Assembly (NCBI GenBank): GCA_021801345.1
Contig: JAJYYA010000064.1
Span: 1 to 38,480, forward strand
Length of the DNA stretch: 38,480 bases
Direction of reading: 5' to 3'
Source of the DNA: Nitrospirota bacterium
GTDB taxonomy: Bacteria; Nitrospirota; Leptospirillia; Leptospirillales; Leptospirillaceae
Each line of letters begins with the position of its first letter. The first letter of the stretch is position 1. The notes under the pieces are model-generated. The model ran no database searches. It saw nothing but the letters and a program-made list of their open reading frames with translations, and had not been told where the DNA came from. Below, one piece after another: positions 2,980 to 38,480 of the stretch. The position numbers were made by a program, and so were the translations under genes.

Positions 2980-3414
2980 CCTGGCCTCCTTGAAAGTTGT
3001 TGAGGTGATACACAAAAACACCTCTTTTCGTTAGCCGTTGTACAATGATGTCAGCCCACCTGCAATCAAACGCCTTGACCACCCGGGCAATGTGGTCGGG
3101 CAATATCGACGAGATAGGTCTTGTCGAAAAGATTGACGAACTCATTCTTTGGGGAAAGTTTGAGATTCATAGGTTTTGCGTCCTCAGAATCTTTATTTTC
3201 ATTTTCATGCTCTCAATCATGAAGAGACCCTTCCAATCTTGCCCAAGTTCAAAAAGCGGCATTTGAAAATTTTGAAAATCTTTAGGTAAAGTATATGTCC
3301 TTTATCCTTTCCTGACAATAGACCGAAAGTTTTGCAAGATCCTACTTTTGTAGTGATGCGAGAACGGTGTTGACGCTCCGGTGAGAGGCTCCTCGATGTC
3401 CTTCCCAGATTTTT
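2980..3414. other. AT-rich intergenic stretch upstream of the lipoprotein gene
   Basis: I see no gene that I can support here. A 73-codon frame at 3045-3266 has no family resemblance. The stretch should contain the promoter of the minus-strand lipoprotein gene, but I could not pick a clear -35/-10 pair. Its right end runs into the remnant at 3415-3633. Confidence 0.4.
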
Positions 3415-3633
3415 TTAAATGGTTATGCGCTAGCATCAGATTTATCTTCTAGTTGTCCAAACACATTAATATCATTACAAAACAGTGGATTTGCCTTTGA
3501 GTTTAATAACAATACCTATATAACAGGAGATCTAACAAATACTACTTCTCCATCGAACGTAACATGTAATGGAACTACTGAAACCATATATGGAAGCGGA
3601 TTCTTATACGAAACCTCTGGTTTATTGTTTTAA
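3415..3633 (+). pseudogene. Remnant of an exported Asn/Ser/Thr-rich protein
   Basis: An open frame without a start codon runs from 3385 to the TAA at 3631-3633. From about 3415 it reads as plausible protein (LNGYALASDLSSSC, then FAFEFNNNTYITGD, ending SGFLYETSGLLF). Its composition (Asn, Ser, Thr, Gly, two Cys) and AT-richness match the two lipoproteins nearby, and FAFEFNNNTYI can be laid against VLFSVNGASYA of the 1741-2979 product. I read it as the 3' remnant of a third family member whose 5' part has been lost. The match is by eye only and weak; it could instead be an unrelated fragment. Confidence 0.4.
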
Positions 3634-3712
3634 GCTCTGTTCCAATAATAGCTCAGATGCCCCTTGTCAGATGCAAAGTATCACTCCCATGAAAGGCAAG
3701 GGGCCATATTTG

Positions 3713-4747
3713 TCACTTTAGCATCTCCGCCAGATCCTCGGCTTTCAGATGGGTATACCGTTTCAGCATCTGCAACGTCTTGTGGCCCGTGATCGCCGCC
3801 ACCTGCATCGGGTTCAAGCCCTTCTCGAAGAAGCGCGAAGTCGCCTCGTGCCGGAGGTCGTGAAAGGTCAGGTCGACCAGGAAGGCCGGATCCGGCTTTT
3901 CCTTCTTCTCTTCGCATTCTTTCTCGTAGGCTTTTCGGGCCCGGGCCACGGCTTCTTGAAAGACCCGAGTGATTCCTAGACCCTTTTCGTCATAGCCCCA
4001 GACACTTCCGTCGATCCGGCGGGCGAGCCCGGAGAGGACTCTGACGGCTTCCGTCGAGAGCGGGATTTTTCGCGGTTCGCCAGTCTTGGTTTCCGGCACA
4101 AAAAGAATCTTCTTCTTGAGATCGACATGTTCCCACTTCATGCGAGAGATTTCCCCCCGACGCATTCCGGTCTCGATGGCGAATCGGATCACGTCACCGA
4201 TCGAGGGAGATCCGGTCGCAGCAAGAATGTTGTCGATCTCTCCCGGAAGGAGACGACGTTCTCTTGGAAGAGGATTTTTCGGTCTTCGAACGCCTGGAAC
4301 GGGATTGGACAGTCCACCCATCCCCCAATCCTGAATCGCCACCGTGAACACGTGGGACAATAGATTCAGGAGGCGGTTGACGGTCGCCGGAGAGGATCTT
4401 TTCAGACGTTCGTCTCTCCATTTCGAAAGATCGGACGAACGAATGTTCGCCAGAAAGAGGGAGCCCAGGGAACTTTTCCGCCAATGGTCAATCTTGTCCT
4501 TTTCTTTAGAATATCCCTTTTTTTTCAGTGAGACTTCCGACTCGTAACGATCCATAGCCTCGGCCAACGTCGTGCTCTCGGCCTCGACCCGGGAGACGAA
4601 CACGCCCCGGTCCATTTCCGATTCGACCTGCCGGGCCCAAGCCTCGGCGTCTGCCCGTGTATTAAATGTCTTTGTCTGGATCGGGGAACCCTTCCGACGG
4701 ATCTTGGCCTGCCATTGATAGGAACCACGTTTATAAAACGTCGCCAT
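3713..4747 (-). CDS. Tyrosine recombinase / phage-type integrase
   Basis: This 344-residue protein has the layout of phage and island integrases. An N-terminal arm-binding region (about 1-60) contains GSYQWQAKIRRKG, a core-binding SAM-like domain spans about 60-160, and a catalytic domain spans about 165-340. All catalytic residues are visible: Arg196 in TGMRRGE, Lys221 in ETKTGE, His296 and Arg299 in FHDLRHEATS, His322 in GHKT, and the nucleophile Tyr331 in KRYTHL. The enzyme should catalyse integration and excision of DNA at an att site. Its 5' end faces the 3' end of a tRNA-Glu gene about 105 bp away, the usual place for the attachment site of such an element, so the element would extend leftwards past the lipoproteins and out of the window. 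It appears intact. Confidence 0.95.
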   Translation of the reverse strand: MATFYKRGSYQWQAKIRRKGSPIQTKTFNTRADAEAWARQVESEMDRGVFVSRVEAESTTLAEAMDRYESEVSLKKKGYSKEKDKIDHWRKSSLGSLFLANIRSSDLSKWRDERLKRSSPATVNRLLNLLSHVFTVAIQDWGMGGLSNPVPGVRRPKNPLPRERRLLPGEIDNILAATGSPSIGDVIRFAIETGMRRGEISRMKWEHVDLKKKILFVPETKTGEPRKIPLSTEAVRVLSGLARRIDGSVWGYDEKGLGITRVFQEAVARARKAYEKECEEKKEKPDPAFLVDLTFHDLRHEATSRFFEKGLNPMQVAAITGHKTLQMLKRYTHLKAEDLAEMLK

Positions 4748-4853
4748 GACATTCCTCCCTATGTCTTAAAAGAAACCACAGAGGAAGTGTCCCATTTTTG
4801 TCCCAAAAATTCAATTTTCAGCGGAGGATTTTTTAGAGAATGGCTTAAATAAA

Positions 4854-4930
4854 TGGCGTCCCCAACGGGATTCGAACCCGTGTTACCGCCGTGAAAGGGC
4901 GATGTCCTAGGCCGGCTAGACGATGGGGAC
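4854..4930 (-). tRNA. tRNA-Glu (anticodon TTC)
   Basis: The minus strand folds as a full cloverleaf: acceptor GTCCCCA with TGGGGAC, anticodon loop CCCTTTCACGG giving anticodon TTC, T arm with GGTTCGAATCC, and an encoded CCA at 4854-4856. The 3' half is the likely attachment site of the island whose integrase follows. I saw no second copy of the tRNA 3' end in the window, so the distal att repeat must be outside. Confidence 0.97.
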
Positions 4931-4954
4931 GGGCGGAAGGCGAAAAACCTTATT

Positions 4955-4984
4955 AGTATGAAGAATTCTTACCTTCATTGTCAA
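4955..4984 (-). promoter_or_regulatory. Sigma-70 type promoter of the tRNA-Glu gene
   Basis: On the minus strand a perfect TTGACA (4984-4979) is followed after 18 nt by CATACT (4960-4955), with AT-rich sequence after it. The tRNA 5' end lies about 25 nt further on, which suits a short precursor leader. Confidence 0.6.
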
Positions 4985-5036
4985 TACTTATTTTTCGAAC
5001 AGAGAATACACCTGAGCTCGTTCGCCCCGTCTGGGG

Positions 5037-5588
5037 CTAAAGAATGGGAAGACGTTCCCGGGAAACCTCCGACAAAAGAGGCAGACGGGAGTCCTTCTCG
5101 GAAACGAGCCCATGGGGAAGAGGCCAGGCGATCTTCAGTGCAGGATCGTTCCAAAGAATCCCCTCTTCGTCCTCCGGGGCATAGAAGTCGGTGCACTTGT
5201 AGAGAAAGTCCGCCGTTTCGCTCGTCACCTGAAATCCGTGGGCAAAGCCCTCCGGAACATACATCATGTGGCCGTTCTCTTCTGTCAAAAGTTCGCCGAA
5301 CCATTGTCCGAAGGTGGGAGATCCCAGGCGCACATCGACTGCCACATCGAAGACCGATCCACGCACGACACGAACGAGCTTCCCCTGGCCATGGCGCCGC
5401 TGATAATGAAGGCCCCGGGTCACCCCCAAGCCAGAGCGGGAATGGTTGTCCTGGACAAAAAGCTGGGGAATGCCCAAACGGGCAAACGTTTTGGCATGGA
5501 AGGTCTCCATGAAGAACCCGCGGCTGTCTCCATGGATCTTCGGCACAAGCACCACAAGCCCCGGAAGGGACGTCTTCCTTACTTCCAT
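5037..5588 (-). CDS. rfbC: dTDP-4-dehydrorhamnose 3,5-epimerase
   Basis: RfbC/RmlC epimerises dTDP-4-keto-6-deoxyglucose at C3 and C5, the third step of dTDP-L-rhamnose synthesis, in the cytoplasm. The 183-residue length is normal. Family blocks are visible: [11 protein letters not shown] near 20-30, [18 protein letters not shown] with the catalytic His61, [16 protein letters not shown], and the C-terminal [30 protein letters not shown]. Its ATG overlaps the end of rfbA by 10 bp, so translation is probably coupled. It is the last gene of the rfbBAC operon. A small GC hairpin (5024-5037, GCCCC/GGGGC) overlaps its stop codon but has no T-run after it. Confidence 0.96.
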
Positions 5589-6460
5589 TCCCCCTCCTCC
5601 GCCGCAACCATCTCTGAGAGATATCGCCCATAGGCATTTCTGAGCCCTGCCGCCATCCGGAGGACCTCCTCCTTCCCGATGTAGCCCAGACGGAAGGCGA
5701 TCTCCTCGGGACAGGAAACCTTGATGCCCTGACGTCTTTCGAGAACCTCCATGAAGATCGAGGCCTCAAGGAGAGATTCGTGGGTTCCCGTATCGAACCA
5801 GGCCACCCCCCGTCCGAGTTTCAGGGCCTCAAGGGATCCCTCCCGCAGATAGAGGCGGTTTAAATCGGTGATCTCGAGCTCCCCCCGGGACGAGGGGGAA
5901 AGAGACCGGGCCCGTTCGACAACCGTCCGGTCGTAGAAGTAGATTCCCGGGACGGCATATCGGGAGGGCGGCGAGGTCGGCTTTTCAACAATGTCGCTAA
6001 GGGCACCGGAGCTGTCAAAGGCCAGGACCCCGTAGCGTTCGGGGTCCCGGATCGCATATCCGAAGATCCGGGCCCCCTTCTCAAGAGTCGCCGCCTTCCG
6101 GAGAACCTCGGGAAGTCCGTGACCATAGAAGATATTGTCCCCCAGGACAAGACAGACGGGCTCTCCTCCGATAAAGTCCGCCCCGACAAGAAAGGCCTGG
6201 GCGAGGCCTTCCGGCTTCGGCTGGACCGCATAGGAAAGGGAGAGCCCCCACTGACCTCCGTCACCGAGAAGCCGCTGAAAGAGCGGGGTGTCTTCTGGAG
6301 TCGAGATGACAAGAATCTCCCGGACGCCTGCCAGCATAAGGGTCGTCAGCGGGTAATAGACCATCGGCTTGTCGTAAACCGGCATGAGCTGTTTGCTCAC
6401 CGCCCGAGTCAAAGGATAGAGCCGGGTGCCGGAGCCCCCGGCGAGAAGAATGCCTTTCAC
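5579..6460 (-). CDS. rfbA: Glucose-1-phosphate thymidylyltransferase
   Basis: RfbA/RmlA joins glucose-1-phosphate and dTTP to give dTDP-glucose, the first step of the rhamnose pathway. I set the start at the GTG at 6460, which gives [16 protein letters not shown] and 293 residues, the usual family length. The frame is open for another 90 codons upstream, but that part is only rfbB read out of frame. The nucleotide-binding GGSGTRL motif is at residues 8-14, followed by [24 protein letters not shown], the EKP segment and WFDTGTH come further on. The start overlaps the rfbB stop by 4 bp (GTGA), with GGAGAGG upstream as ribosome binding site. Confidence 0.95.
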
Positions 6461-7554
6461 TTTCCCTCTCCTTGTTTGCGTCCGATCCCCTGGCGGGAGC
6501 CGTCGTAGCGGGCCCGAAGCGCCTCCCACCAGGAGCGGTTCGCAAGGTACCACCGGACGGTCTTTTCGAGCGCCTCCTCGAAACTGTGTGCGGGCGTCCA
6601 CCCCAGCTCGGTGCGGGACCGCGCGGCATCGATCTCGTATCGCCGGTCGTGGCCCGGGCGGTCCGGGACCGCAGTGACAAGCTCCCGGGCGCTCCTTCCC
6701 GTCCGGGAAGCGAGTCGGTCGAGGATTTTGCATAGGGTTTCTATCAGCGCGCGGTTGGTCTTCGGATTGCCGGCGCCAATCGCGTAGGTTTCGCCTTCCC
6801 GCCCCCGATCGAAGGCCGCGAGCACCCCGTCACAATGGTCCTCGACGAAAATCCAGTCCCGGATATTCTCCCCGTCCCCGTAGAGAGGTATGGGTCGCCC
6901 TTCGAGTGCCGAGAGGATCACCGTGGGAATGAGCTTCTCGGGAAACTGCCAGGGACCGTAGTTGTTCGAGCAGTTTGTCGTCACCACCGGAAGACCGTAG
7001 GTGTGAAAGTAGGCCCGGACGAGATGGTCGGAGGCGGCTTTGGAGGCGGCGTAGGGAGAGTTGGGAGCGTAGGGCGTCCGCTCGGTGAAAGGAGGGTCGG
7101 AGGGAGAAAGGGACCCGTAGACCTCGTCGGTGGAGACGTGGAGGAAGCGGAATCCCTTCCCTCTGCCTTCTCGCTCCCAGTACCGAAGCGCCGCATCGAG
7201 CAGGACGAAGGTCCCGGTGACATTTGTCGAGACGAACTCCCCGGGATTTTCGATAGAGCGGTCGACGTGGCTCTCGGCGGCAAAATGAAAGAGTCCGGTG
7301 GGGCGGATCTCAGACAGGAGAGCGGAGACCGCCGGGGAGTCGCGGATGTCCCCCCGGACGAAAAGGTGGTCCGGGTCGCCCTCGAGAGAGAGAAGGTTGT
7401 CCCGGTTGCCGGCATAGGTCAAAAGATCGAAGGTCACAACCCGGGCACGATTCTCCCGGCGCACCTTGTGGACAAAGTTCGATCCGATGAACCCCGCGCC
7501 TCCCGTCACAATCCATGTCGGCCGCCCGTCATCCTTCCCATTGCCTATTGCCAC
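6457..7554 (-). CDS. rfbB: dTDP-glucose 4,6-dehydratase
   Basis: RfbB/RmlB, a short-chain dehydrogenase-type NAD enzyme, dehydrates dTDP-glucose to the 4-keto-6-deoxy sugar. The 365 residues include the NAD-binding GGAGFIGSN at 18-26, the catalytic Thr142-Asp143-Glu144 in STDEVYG, and Tyr168/Lys172 in PYAASK, then [14 protein letters not shown]. The GTG start at 7554 has AAGGAT 6-7 nt upstream. It is the first gene of the rfbBAC operon. No rfbD (dTDP-4-dehydrorhamnose reductase) is in the window, so the last step must be encoded elsewhere. A 34 bp palindrome lies 37 bp upstream of the start. Confidence 0.95.
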
Positions 7555-33930: not shown

Positions 33931-35872
33931 TATTACCCATTAAGTTGAGGTGGTTCACTCATCGCGGACGTGATGGAGGTCGCACCGGAACTTCTAAGCC
34001 ACCAATTGGTGGTTCACATTCTTCCGAATCTTTCACTTGGATGCTGATACTTCTAAGCCACCTGCGGTGGTTCACGTCATGGAAAGCCTCAAGAACCTCC
34101 CGCTCTTCTTCTAAGCCACCTATGCGGTGGTTCACTCCCATGCGGCCCATGCGGCGTCCCTTGCGGACTTCTAAGCCACCTATGCGGTGGTTCACGCCAA
34201 GGACCCGTGTAAGGCTCAAGCGTGGTCCTTCTAAGCCACCTATGCGGTGGTTCACAGACGCCTGAATAATAGCATCGCGATGTAAAACTTCTAAGCCACC
34301 TATGCGGTGGTTCACGTTTGAATCGAAGGAGACAAAAATTCTAGAAACTTCTAAGCCACCTATGCGGTGGTTCACGCGATCGAGGCGATTGAGAAAAAGG
34401 CTCCGGTCTTCTAAGCCACCTATGCGGTGGTTCACAGCCCCATCTGTGTGAGCTCGAGCGTCTTGATCTTCTAAGCCACCTATGCGGTGGTTCACAGCCC
34501 CATCTGTGTGAGCTCGAGCGTCTTGATCTTCTAAGCCACCTATGCGGTGGTTCACCATCCGCGTGACCTTGTCGGCCACTTCATCTGCTTCTAAGCCACC
34601 TATGCGGTGGTTCACCACTTGATCCCCTCGACAAAGGCATCGATGATCTTCTAAGCCACCTATGCGGTGGTTCACCGAAGTCCCGTATGGATGGCGAACT
34701 CCACGAACTTCTAAGCCACCTATGCGGTGGTTCACACTTTTCGGCTCTCTGATCCCCCAGACTTCCGCTTCTAAGCCACCTATGCGGTGGTTCACGAATT
34801 ACAGTTCCAGAGTTTGTCCCGAGAGTCCTTCTAAGCCACCTATGCGGTGGTTCACGTTTCTTACGACTTTCGATGAACCGACTCTCACTTCTAAGCCACC
34901 TATGCGGTGGTTCACGGCTCCTGGAGGTCAATCAGACGGCTCTCAATCTTCTAAGCCACCTATGCGGTGGTTCACACGCCTGTTCCCGCCAGGATGGTTT
35001 CGGTTTCCTTCTAAGCCACCTATGCGGTGGTTCACTTATCCGAACATCTCCCTGAACCGGGTTTCCACTTCTAAGCCACCTATGCGGTGGTTCACCACAT
35101 GTCATTTGAGGAATGGCTGGAAACGACCTTCTAAGCCACCTATGCGGTGGTTCACGTCTGTCCGTTCGATGGCCGGACCGTCCTCCCCTTCTAAGCCACC
35201 TATGCGGTGGTTCACGAGATCAGGGAAAAGCAGGTATCCCGGTTCCGCTTCTAAGCCACCTATGCGGTGGTTCACCAATCAACACGGCCCACGCAGTTAG
35301 TCCTTCTCTTCTAAGCCACCTATGCGGTGGTTCACGAGTCGCCGTCAAGCCAACAATTCTCGCTTTCCTTCTAAGCCACCTATGCGGTGGTTCACGACCT
35401 GATCCGTTCACTTCTCGCTCACATCGACTTCTAAGCCACCTATGCGGTGGTTCACTGGAGGGGTGTCAGTAGTTAAAGAGTGCTTGACTTCTAAGCCACC
35501 TATGCGGTGGTTCACGGCTTGTCATCACGATTGACTATCATTCCTGACTTCTAAGCCACCTATGCGGTGGTTCACAGGACGCATGGGATCAGTACTCAGA
35601 CCGACTCCTTCTAAGCCACCTATGCGGTGGTTCACCGTTCCAGTTCCTCCCGGAGCCTCCGGTTCTCCTTCTAAGCCACCTATGCGGTGGTTCACGGCCG
35701 TCGAACGGGTAGACGGAACCAGGGTATCTTCTAAGCCACCTATGCGGTGGTTCACTGTGAGCTGTTCGATAAGGGGACGCTGGACGACTTCTAAGCCACC
35801 TATGCGGTGGTTCACTTTTTAAGTCTGCCTGCTGTTGCTCCGACATCCTTCTAAGCCACCTATGCGGTGGTT
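33931..35872 (-). CRISPR. Type I-F-like CRISPR array, 33 repeats, no cas genes, truncated by an IS
   Basis: There are 33 repeat positions and 32 spacers. Thirty repeats from 34108 to 35848 recur exactly every 60 nt (28 nt repeat, 32 nt spacer). Three more at 33931, 33991 and 34050 are degenerate but also spaced by 32 nt. On the minus strand the repeat starts GTGAACCACC, ends GGTGGCTTAGAAG and folds as CCACC, GCATA, GGTGG, the 5 bp stem and 5 nt loop of type I-F (Cas6f/Csy4-processed) repeats. Transcription is therefore inferred from high to low coordinates, with degenerate repeats at the leader-distal end. The repeat at 35848 matches only for 25 nt before an IS21-type end begins at 35873, so the leader is missing. 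One spacer occurs twice in succession (34436-34467 and 34496-34527). No cas gene lies in the window. Confidence 0.97.
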
Positions 35873-35945
35873 TGCGTATTCCGATGAAGATTGCCACCAA
35901 TTCCGATCCATGGTTGCCACTTATTCCGGCATGATTGCCACCCCC
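35873..35945 (+). repeat. IS21-type terminal direct repeats
   Basis: The tip reads TGCGTATTCCGATGAAG. After it, TTGCCAC recurs at 35891, 35914 and 35935, twice followed closely by ATTCCG. Multiple short direct repeats of 20-odd nt period inside a TG...CA tip are typical of IS21-family ends and bind IstA. Confidence 0.7.
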
Positions 35946-35977
35946 TGAACCCTCTCTAAAAAACCCCCTGCCGGGAG

Positions 35978-37564
35978 TCAGATCAGGAGGCGACCGGAGC
36001 GGTCGTCTTCGCCTTTGTTTTTCTCATAGAGTAGGATAGGCGGGGCCCATCGCTGAGCCCAACCCTCCGAGGAACTGTGCATGCGACTTTCACCGCACAC
36101 AGCTCGATCAGGTCAAAAGCCGCTCCTTGTTCGGGAGGGCCGGTTGGACAAAAGACCGTCCAACCTTCACGCTACACGTCGAAGGCCCCATAGCTTGCGC
36201 CGGCGGGAGCACACGTCCTTACGGACGATTCCACAGCTTTTCCGCCTACTGGAGATTAAACGACTTTCGTATGACGACCCAACACGCGGAAGTAGGCCGG
36301 GTTTCCCCGAGGGATGATGTTGTCCGAAGACTCAATCCCTATGCGCCCTATTACCGGGCGCCATTCGCTTGCTCCGCGATCCCATACCCGCACGGGTGTT
36401 GGCTTACCTCACGGCTCGCTTTCCCGGAAAGGAGACCCGGGACCCGTACGGGCTTACCACGTTCCACTAAAGTCACAAGAGCGGGTTAGGACCCTGCTTT
36501 GCGCCGGGAGCGCGTCATCCGTGTCTTCCCAGGAGAAAAGGGAAGAACCTGTCTCCGTGCCTTTTTTGGCTTGAGCCTGTCAGCAGATTTGGCTCATCAA
36601 TGATAACGGCGCTTACGCAGATTCACTTTCGTTGTCCATACCGCTCAGCCTGGCCCCCGGACCTCCTCTCTGCTGGAAGCCCACTCGTTGTCTCACGACT
36701 CGGAGATGCTTTCGCGGGGTACGTTGTCCCGAGAGCTTCATACCAACGGATTGCTCCGGACGCATGTCTCGGTAGGCTACCACTGACGGAACAGTGGGTT
36801 CCCTCCTTTGTTGTTAAGCAAAGTGGAACAATGACTTGAGCGACTTCGTGTCGCACCTCTCCTTTCATTTCAATAGTGTATGCGCCATGAACGAGGCGGT
36901 CCAGGATCGCATCGGCCAGGGTGGGGTCTCCGATCCGGTTGTGCCACTCCGGAAGAGGGATCTGGGACGTCACGAGTGTTGCTCTGACATTGTAGCGGTC
37001 TTCAAGGATTTCGAAGAGATCCTGGCGGTGTTCGGAGGTCATGGGAGAAAGAAGAAAGTCTTCAATTATGATGACGTCTTGCCTGGCCAGATTCTTCAGG
37101 AAGCCCGGATATTTTCCGGTGTGGCGGGCAATGTCGAGAGACTGGAAGAGGCGAGGGAAGCGGATCAGGAGGACCCGGTATCCCATGCGGCAGGCCTTGT
37201 GTCCCAAGGCTTCTCCCAGGTAGCTTTTGCCAACGCCGGTCGGCCCGGTGACGAGGATGTTCTGGTGGTTGGCGATCCACTGGCCGGAGAGAAGCGTCTG
37301 GACCAGGGGTTTGGGAAGGTTCCGGGGACTCCGGAAGTCGAGGTCCTCGGGGGTGGCGTTCTGCCGGAGCCTGGCCGCCTTGAGACGCCGCTCTGTCCGT
37401 CGGTTTTCCTGAACCGTGATCTCCCGGTCGACCAGAAGACCGAGACGGTCTTCAAAGGAGAGATCGGCGGCGGCTCCGGGGGTGCGCTCCTGATCCTCCA
37501 TTCCCTCGAGGAAGCCTGTGAGACTGAGGGCCTTGAGCTTTTCTTTCAGCGGGTTGATCAACAT
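35978..37564 (-). CDS. istB: IstB-like helper ATPase, split by a group II intron
   Basis: IstB is an AAA+ ATPase that selects target DNA and activates the IstA integrase of IS21 elements. The start is the ATG at 37564, with AAGGAGG 6 nt upstream. Exon 1 (37564-36857) encodes 236 residues: KLKALSLTGFLEGMEDQ, then Walker A GPTGVGKSYLGEALGH, FPRLFQSLDIARH, VIIIEDFLLSPMTSEHRQDLFEILEDRYN, ending AYTIEMKGE. The reading then enters an 831 nt group II intron (36856-36026). Exon 2 (36025-35978) continues EKNKGEDDRSGRLLI and stops. The spliced product is 251 residues, the usual IstB size. Read without splicing, the frame runs 78 codons into the intron with unrelated sequence. Confidence 0.85.
36026..36856 (-). 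mobile_element. ORF-less group II intron inside istB
   Basis: Several hallmarks agree. The 5' end reads GTGCGAC, matching the GUGYG consensus, directly after the istB codons for MKGE. A 34 nt domain V lies at 36105-36072. A 46 nt tail follows it and ends CTACTCTAT, as expected for domain VI and the 3' splice site. The sequence TTCTCC (36537-36532) can act as EBS1, pairing with the last six exon bases GGAGAG. At 831 nt it is too short for a reverse transcriptase gene, and no such frame is seen, so it would need an intron-encoded protein supplied in trans. Removal restores the istB frame. Confidence 0.85.
36072..36105 (-). ncRNA. Group II intron domain V
   Basis: The 34 nt hairpin begins GAGCTGTGTGCGG, has a GAAA tetraloop and ends CGCATGCACAGTTC. 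GAGC pairs with GTTC, and the AGC catalytic triad is present near the base. This is the most conserved part of the ribozyme. Confidence 0.9.
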
Positions 37565-37600
37565 CTGGGCCTCCTTGGTGTTGTGTGTGTCACTAGTAAT

Positions 37601-37669
37601 GGATCGGACTATTGGATCCATTTCCGGATCGCCTCAATGGCGCCACCTTCGGATCGGGACAATGGCGCC
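37601..37669 (+). repeat. IS21-like direct repeats just upstream of istB
   Basis: Three copies at 37601-37620, 37624-37644 and 37649-37669 follow the form CGGATCGnnnCAATGGCGCCA, the first copy weaker. The period is 24-25 nt. They read in the same direction as the terminal repeats at 35873-35945, so they cannot be the matching inverted end of the same element. They look like the end of a second IS21-type element whose body would lie to the right, and they occupy the place where istA should be. Confidence 0.5.
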
Positions 37670-37682
37670 AGGGGCGAGGCTT

Positions 37683-38321
37683 CTACGGCGTGTTTTTTCC
37701 CGGCGTTCTGGTCCGGGAACTTCCTGTGAGGCTCTTGTGTTCTCCCTCCTTTCCTTGGAGCAGGTTCTCGATTCGGGCAGTCGCCTCGTTTACGCGTGTT
37801 CGGAGGTCCTCGATCTGGCCGCAAAGACCCTTTCTCTCGCCTTCCCGTTCGGACGCCTCTTTCTCCGCCCGGATCCGTTCCTCCCGCTCCTGTTCGCAGG
37901 CCCTCCGAAGCCCTTCGGAGAGCGCCCGGAGCTCCGCGAGGCACCCTTCTCCTTTTTGAAGCTCCTCCGTCCGGAGGCTCGCTTCCCGGCGGGACTCTTC
38001 AAGACACCTCTCGAGCCGGACGTTCTCGTCTTCCAGCACGATCAGCCGCTGTCGTTCCGCCCGGAGCTCCTCCTCTCCCTGCTCCCGGATCTCCCGGGCC
38101 TGTCTCTCGAAGGCCTCCCGAAGTCCCCGGAGAAGCTCGGCCGGGAGCTCCGTCCGGTTCTCCGTTGCCGGAGCGTCGACTGCCCTCTCCCGCATGAGGC
38201 GGCTGATGGTGCCGAGGCTTCCCGTTCCGAGAACCTCCCGGACCGCCCGGACGGTCGGCGTCTCGCCCCGTTTGTGTAATACGTCGATGGCCGCTACAAT
38301 TTGTTCAGGTGTCAGTGCCAT
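37683..38321 (-). CDS. KfrA-N-type DNA-binding coiled-coil protein
   Basis: The ATG at 38321 has AAGGAG about 6 nt upstream. Residues 1-50 match the N-terminal DNA-binding domain of KfrA-like proteins: MALTPEQIVAAIDVLHKRGE, then TPTVRAVREVLGTGSLGTISRLMRE (cut for length). The following 130 residues are a long Glu/Arg/Leu-rich coiled coil (LREAFERQAREIREQGEEELRAERQ onwards), ending in a short basic tail. Family members occur on plasmids and with transposons such as the Tn4651 type, as architectural or regulatory proteins. The 212-residue length is shorter than KfrA itself. Its 3' end runs up to the IS21-like repeats, so the tail might be truncated. Confidence 0.8.
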   Translation of the reverse strand: MALTPEQIVAAIDVLHKRGETPTVRAVREVLGTGSLGTISRLMRERAVDAPATENRTELPAELLRGLREAFERQAREIREQGEEELRAERQRLIVLEDENVRLERCLEESRREASLRTEELQKGEGCLAELRALSEGLRRACEQEREERIRAEKEASEREGERKGLCGQIEDLRTRVNEATARIENLLQGKEGEHKSLTGSSRTRTPGKNTP

Positions 38322-38353
38322 GGAGATCTCCTTCGTTTTTGGGTGAGGTCGTC

Positions 38354-38480
38354 GTGGATTCTGTGGCGCCGTGTTATGAACTTACTTTTCGCAAATCAAA
38401 AATCGGCTTGGGGGAATTTCTGGGAGAGAAGGAATTCGAAGAGGGCCTGAAGACGCAAGTCTTGCGTACGGGCCGTTTCC
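38354..38480 (+). CDS. Possible 5' end of a gene divergent from the KfrA-like gene (partial)
   Basis: From the GTG at 38354 a plus-strand frame stays open to the window edge (VDSVAPCYELTFRKSKIGLG and on to LKTQVLRTGRF). The purine-rich GGGTGAGG upstream might serve as ribosome binding site. I do not recognise the product. A minus-strand frame ending near 38393 (ETARTQDLRLQALFEFLLSQ) is an alternative reading of the same bases. Too little is present to decide. Confidence 0.25.
   Translation, partial: MDSVAPCYELTFRKSKIGLGEFLGEKEFEEGLKTQVLRTGRF

Follow-up and report, generated by a model that had tools for sequence, protein, structure and literature searches.

An ORF-less group II intron in istB of an IS21-family element within a CRISPR array, with splicing predicted to restore the IstB C-terminus

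Near one end of the window (the whole stretch of DNA analysed, 38,480 nt, which is all of contig C18), an istB gene starts at 37564 on the minus strand, and its homology to other IstB proteins ends after ..IEMKGE at 36857. This is where a preliminary description of the sequence had seen the istB frame broken, after MKGE, by an ORF-less group II intron that must splice to give a full IstB. The locus raises the questions of what interrupts istB, where the insertion begins and ends, and what protein could be made from the gene with and without it. The parts of the interrupted gene are as follows.

36857..37564, minus strand: istB exon 1, 236 codons from M1 to E236 of KGE (PF01695 IstB_IS21, 205 bits; alignable to the C51 copy up to 36857)
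36031..36856, minus strand: ORF-less group II intron (Rfam RF02012 and RF00029; empty site in C51; 84% identical relative on G010:C70)
35983..36030, minus strand: istB exon 2, SMRKTKAKTTAPVAS plus stop, bearing the sensor II arginine (alignment to C51; PMC11208146 and alignment)

A search of the same genome revealed an intronless IS21 copy on contig C51 (G000:C51), which serves as the empty site. It reads AAAGGAGAG|TCTATGAGAAAAACAAAGG, with the insertion point at GGAGAG|TCTATG, and the window aligns to it as AAAGGAGAG-GTGCG...CCTAC-TCTATGAGAAAAACAAAGG. Related introns of sister genomes have ..AC or ..ACC at the base equivalent to 36031. On the strength of the intronless copy and the ends of these relatives, the intron was assigned to 36856..36031, which gives 826 nt instead of the 831 nt initially proposed, and the predicted splice junction is 36857/36030, joining AAAGGAGAG to TCTATGAG. 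A 3′ end at 36026 is ruled out by the C51 copy, since it would count the first five bases of the 3′ exon as intron. The junction put forward earlier, 36857/36025, likewise predicts a protein of 251 residues that ends at a stop codon, but it reads exon 2 out of frame: its tail would be KGEEKNKGEDD (..KGEEKNKGEDDRSGRLLI), which occurs in no IstB relative, and the correct junction gives ..KGESMRKTKAKTTAPVAS followed by the stop codon. Since the genome is a multi-contig draft, an assembly error that joined an intron to an unrelated istB was also considered. It is highly improbable, as the intronless copy predicts the position of both junctions to the base, and the window istB differs from that copy in 24% of its residues, so that no second template for a chimaera is seen.

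The identity of the insertion was established by covariance models and by its ends, and the following parts of the ribozyme were located.

36654..36798, minus strand: domain I segment (RF02012 match)
36031..36107, minus strand: domains V and VI (RF00029, 54.1 bits; fold of −38.2 kcal/mol, z −3.8)
36037, minus strand: bulged adenosine of domain VI, the probable branch point (from the fold; seventh base from the 3′ end)

RF02012 (group II domain I) matched 36798-36654 over the full model (1-151 of 151) with 103.8 bits and an E-value of 6e-21. The domain V search that the preliminary description had called for returned RF00029 (domains V/VI) over its full 77-nt model at 36107-36031 (E 5e-8). Both scores are far above the Rfam gathering scores (34 for RF02012 and 40 for RF00029), and chance is no serious alternative for these matches. 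The intron begins with GTGCG at 36856-36852, directly after MKGE as had been noted, and ends with CCTAC, of which AC lies at 36032-36031; these match the 5′ GUGYG and 3′ AY consensus sequences at the exact ends of the insertion. The predicted fold of the domain V/VI stretch leaves A36037 bulged in domain VI. There is no reverse-transcriptase ORF inside the 826 nt, and a remnant of an intron-encoded protein (IEP) was sought in the window intron with no match above shuffled or chance scores. The covariance matches, both ends and the bulged A thus bear out the earlier assignment to group II, as does the lack of convincing IEP homology its description as ORF-less.

Recognition of the exon by base-pairing involves four short elements.

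36532..36537, minus strand: EBS1, TTCTCC (partner IBS1; co-varies with the exon, TTGACC/GGTCAA in G010:C70)
36599..36605, minus strand: EBS2, TATCATT (6/7 with IBS2; in G010:C70 AATGGAC/GTTCATT, 7/7)
36857..36862, minus strand: IBS1, GGAGAG, in exon 1 (pairing with EBS1)
36863..36869, minus strand: IBS2, AATGAAA, in exon 1 (pairing with EBS2)

The pairing of EBS1 TTCTCC with GGAGAG, proposed earlier, holds with all six pairs, one being G.U, and EBS2/IBS2 adds six pairs of seven. The closest relative of the intron, an ORF-less intron of 854 nt on contig C70 of genome G010 (84% identity over 569 nt), lies at an unrelated site with IBS GTTCATT-GGTCAA, to which its own EBS2 and EBS1 pair 7/7 and 6/6. 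Over the first 400 nt the two introns are 89% identical, yet their EBS letters differ, and each set matches its own exon: pairing to the own exon amounts to 12/13 in the window and 13/13 in G010:C70, whereas cross-pairing reaches only 8/13 and 6/13. Sites with at least 12/13 pairing occur in the window at about 1e-4 per position for the window EBS and 1e-5 for the G010:C70 EBS, rates that flatter the match because the EBS positions were picked after inspection. As the EBS of such similar introns differ and each fits its own exon, the comparison provides good evidence that this intron family moved by base-pairing. EBS1 also pairs 6/6, with G.U allowed, to 14 of the 17 intronless istB motifs examined, and EBS2 pairs 6/7 to ten of them. 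This breadth is explained by the target, the codon stretch for E-M-K-G-E, in which synonymous changes are absorbed by G.U pairs of EBS1. With a full EBS1 match in most of these istB genes, the intron could conceivably spread widely among IS21 elements and curb their transposition via splicing, although we regard this as a doubtful extension. Only one intron copy was found at this istB site, and a search of 396 genomes of the phylum for further istB introns there recovered the exact exon-intron pattern in the window only; nine of the near matches were inspected, and these had neither IstB context nor group II hits.

Joining of E236 to S237 would yield an IstB of 251 residues with the C-terminus IEMKGESMRKTKAKTTAPVAS (C51 counterpart, KGESMRKTKAKTTPTVDS). 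The IEMKGESMRK of this spliced frame is present in 10/10 IstB matches from other phyla, and at this place every IstB match compared shows the sensor II arginine within KGESMR or a closely similar motif. In IS5376, the sensor II residue of IstB is Arg237 (PMC11208146). The numbering of chain 8q3w runs three ahead of that in the paper, whose Tyr170 and Asn199 are found at 173 and 202; accordingly, Arg237 is the R of KGESYR, and this R aligns with R239 of the spliced window IstB. The intron thus separates codon 236 from codon 237. The AAA+ sensor II arginine comes right after this split and is an exon 2 residue, so that it is missing from the product of unspliced mRNA. In the unspliced frame 77 further codons stay open, giving a protein of 313 residues without the sensor II arginine.

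This open extension would suit a reading in which the 313-residue protein is the working IstB, its intron-derived tail is used and splicing is immaterial, all the more as ATPase-deficient IstB mutants of IS5376 still support integration in vitro, to differing extents (PMC11208146). We consider it improbable, since the 77-residue tail occurs in none of the IstB matches compared, all of which carry the motif and its arginine, and the IstB copies of sister genomes read through the KGESMR motif with no intron. The earlier contention that splicing is needed for a full IstB is supported, as both the sensor II arginine and the canonical C-terminus lie in exon 2; splicing is thus needed for the full protein, though not necessarily for transposition. 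Given the partial activity of the IS5376 mutants, some transposition may occur without splicing.

An ORF-less intron raises the question of which protein would assist it. ORF-less group II introns are rare in bacteria and nearly always occur alongside related IEPs in the genome (PMC4424553), and IEPs that act in trans on ORF-less introns are known (PMC2882425, PMC4424553). In the genome of the window, a draft assembly of 73 contigs, RT and GIIM domains were found only on contig C2. This contig carries a twintron, in which an inner intron lies at the YADD motif inside the RT gene of the outer intron; the RT of the outer intron and the maturase domain of the inner one each switch frame, so that both IEPs are apparently frameshifted. 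The window intron shares 63-64% identity with the C2 introns over the 5′ 400 nt and belongs to a different ribozyme clade. In a tree of these 400 nt it groups with the G010:C70 intron (99/99), then with a set including the IEP-coding intron of G009:C23, apart from the C2 twintrons. Unbroken inner IEPs of the C2 type are encoded on G009:C111 (541 aa) and G008:C13 (an open frame of 534 codons). By sequence, a helper IEP is thus present in the genus, but not demonstrably in the 73-contig assembly itself. An IEP-coding intron may be absent from this assembly, because it is a draft with mobile elements at contig ends (C17, C18).

Further relatives were found across the genus. Another ORF-less intron, of 839 nt and cut by the contig end, belongs to another branch (G009:C2), and 5′-truncated copies are present on G000:C7, G008:C25 and G008:C24. 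The copies on G000:C7 (L077, about 480-856) and G008:C25 (L076) begin at a common truncation point with the same sequence ahead of it, as would be expected had another mobile element carried them. The window intron itself has a mosaic look: its first 400 nt resemble G010:C70 (89%), and from position 390 on, including domain IV, it is closer to G009:C18 (75%; the stretch concerned is about 400-745 of the intron, 36112-36457 of the window). Twintrons of the C2 design occur in three genomes of the genus (L073 on G000:C2 at 3008-7502, L080 and L081). Elsewhere, an apparent IS110-type transposase gene contains the start of a related group II intron whose RT frame is open (L005 on G015:C1, from 1459). 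Among the matches listed from plasmid and phage records, all were partial, covering at most 69% of the intron, mostly at 60-80% identity, and none extended over 80% of the query. In the G010:C70 intron, about 57 columns match the region where the IEP of the C2 inner intron starts (GELVM..), with an alignment score of 46 against a shuffled maximum of 29. Owing to this remnant of the C2 inner-intron type, the G010 intron is likely to have lost its ORF from an IEP-coding intron.

Two other readings hinge on these relatives. The intron could be a degenerate relic, inserted correctly once and now splicing-dead for want of a working IEP, leaving a dead or weakened, truncated IstB. The apparently frameshifted IEPs of the genome, its truncated intron copy on C7 and the finding that bacterial copies are mostly inactive or truncated (PMC4424553) all fit such decay. 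It is nevertheless unlikely, though the most credible of the readings set against ours: both exon pairings, the 5′ and 3′ splice consensus, domain V and the bulged A are intact, as are the frames of istB and exon 2; the intron keeps its high identity to the G010 intron over the first 400 nt, with EBS changes that fit its own exon; and a draft of this kind may simply miss an IEP. Somewhat less likely again, the intron might splice alone or with general host RNA chaperones and no trans-acting IEP, for which one bacterial precedent exists in C.te.I1 of Clostridium tetani (PMC4424553, PMC3919590) and with which the lack of a close IEP-coding relative in the assembly would agree. This is opposed by the occurrence in the genus of IEPs that belong to related introns, and by the IEP start remnant of the sister G010 intron, which points to an IEP-dependent ancestry.

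The gene that hosts the intron is itself part of a nested arrangement, whose further elements in the window are listed here.

35873..38480, minus strand: IS21-family element, with this end TGCGTATTCC at 35873 (other end on contig C50)
37683..38321, minus strand: KfrA_N-like accessory gene of the IS, upstream of istB (PF11740, 51.9 bits)
34108..35872, plus strand: CRISPR array of 30 repeats of CTTCTAAGCCACCTATGCGGTGGTTCAC (last repeat cut by the IS after 25 nt)

The element was assigned to IS21 through its IstB (PF01695) and its TG..CA ends, with istA recognised from gene order and mutual similarity and not from a profile search. The complete copy on C51 has the gene order istA-kfrA-istB (KfrA_N-like gene at L079, about 1053-1775), and a KfrA_N-like gene between istA and istB appears to be an accessory gene of this IS21 branch. 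The array repeat is interrupted after 25 of its 28 nt, directly at the IS end TGCGTATTCC. Contig C50 starts with an istA-like ORF of 601 codons and reaches the IS end GGAATATGCA at 2006, after which follow GTTCAC, a 32-nt spacer and 31 further repeats (L091 2007-3878). The flanks on C18 and C50 share only GTT (3 bp); IS21-family elements duplicate 4-8 bp of their target. No spacer is common to the two array halves. With a gap inside the IS between the two contigs, this arrangement agrees with a single array of about 61 repeats into which one IS21 has inserted. The three-level nesting described earlier is therefore upheld, with the intron in istB, istB in IS21, IS21 in a CRISPR repeat, and the array resuming on C50. 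A degenerate repeat lies at 34051, on the far side of the window array, and on C50 the array is followed by AT-rich sequence; we infer a leader on C50 and an istA-kfrA-istB orientation that is the same as that of the pre-crRNA. Read-through could then join expression of the IS and the distal crRNA. Two side features were also seen. An identical spacer is carried by two neighbouring array units (34436-34467 and 34496-34527), and similar inverted sequences, GTTATGAAC..TTCGCAAATC, are found at the window contig end (38370-38400) and the C50 start (L091 1-90); another insertion, lying between istA and the kfrA-like gene, may have its ends there.

We therefore favour, with a probability of roughly 85%, the explanation that a mobile-type ORF-less intron lies in istB and that splicing restores IstB, probably with maturase help in trans. 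The intron would have entered istB by base-pairing (reverse splicing) at the E-M-K-G-E codons. On transcription of istA-kfrA-istB, its RNA would fold, EBS1 and EBS2 would hold the 5′ exon, the bulged A36037 would allow a lariat to form, and exon joining would produce the 251-residue IstB with its KGESMR motif; mRNA left unspliced would encode the 313-residue protein with the intron-encoded tail and no sensor II. Splicing and earlier movement were probably aided by a maturase from elsewhere, most likely of the C2/C111 twintron type. The boundaries, ribozyme parts, exon pairing, empty site and nesting are observed directly; from the explanation as a whole we infer splicing in the cell, a maturase acting in trans and splicing that limits transposition.

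Several known systems resemble parts of this arrangement. The TeI3 introns of Thermosynechococcus elongatus are likewise small and ORF-less, occupy several sites with good EBS/IBS pairing, and occur, as here, alongside IEP-coding relatives and twintrons (PMC2882425). Their driver IEPs, however, are near relatives in the same genome with demonstrated trans action (PMC2882425), whereas the sole IEP locus of the present assembly is more distant and apparently broken. C.te.I1 is also an ORF-less bacterial group II intron with no close IEP in its genome, but it lies within a surface-layer protein gene and splices alternatively (PMC3919590, PMC4424553). The IS21-family IS5376 shares istA and istB, the AAA+ helper IstB and the sensor II arginine in KGES(Y/M)R (PMC11208146); the IS21 branch of the window differs by the KfrA_N-like gene between istA and istB and by the intron in istB. 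RmInt1, which codes for its own IEP, is likewise a group II intron in an IS transposition gene. Residing in ISRm2011-2 of Sinorhizobium meliloti, RmInt1 must be spliced correctly for the protein to be made, so that poor splicing limits the host IS (PMC4238363). RmInt1 interrupts a transposase gene, whereas the window intron is ORF-less and interrupts istB, which encodes the helper ATPase of an IS21.

Neither an ORF-less intron nor a group II intron inside an IS gene is thus new, and the parts of this locus are ordinary; as far as titles indicate, the open literature naming both 'group II intron' and 'IstB' suggests no such intron in istB. The case is useful in that an empty site fixes the boundary and the exon pairing is checked by its change at two sites. 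As istB is moreover split directly in front of the sensor II arginine, a simple bench experiment could address how splicing bears on IS21 transposition.
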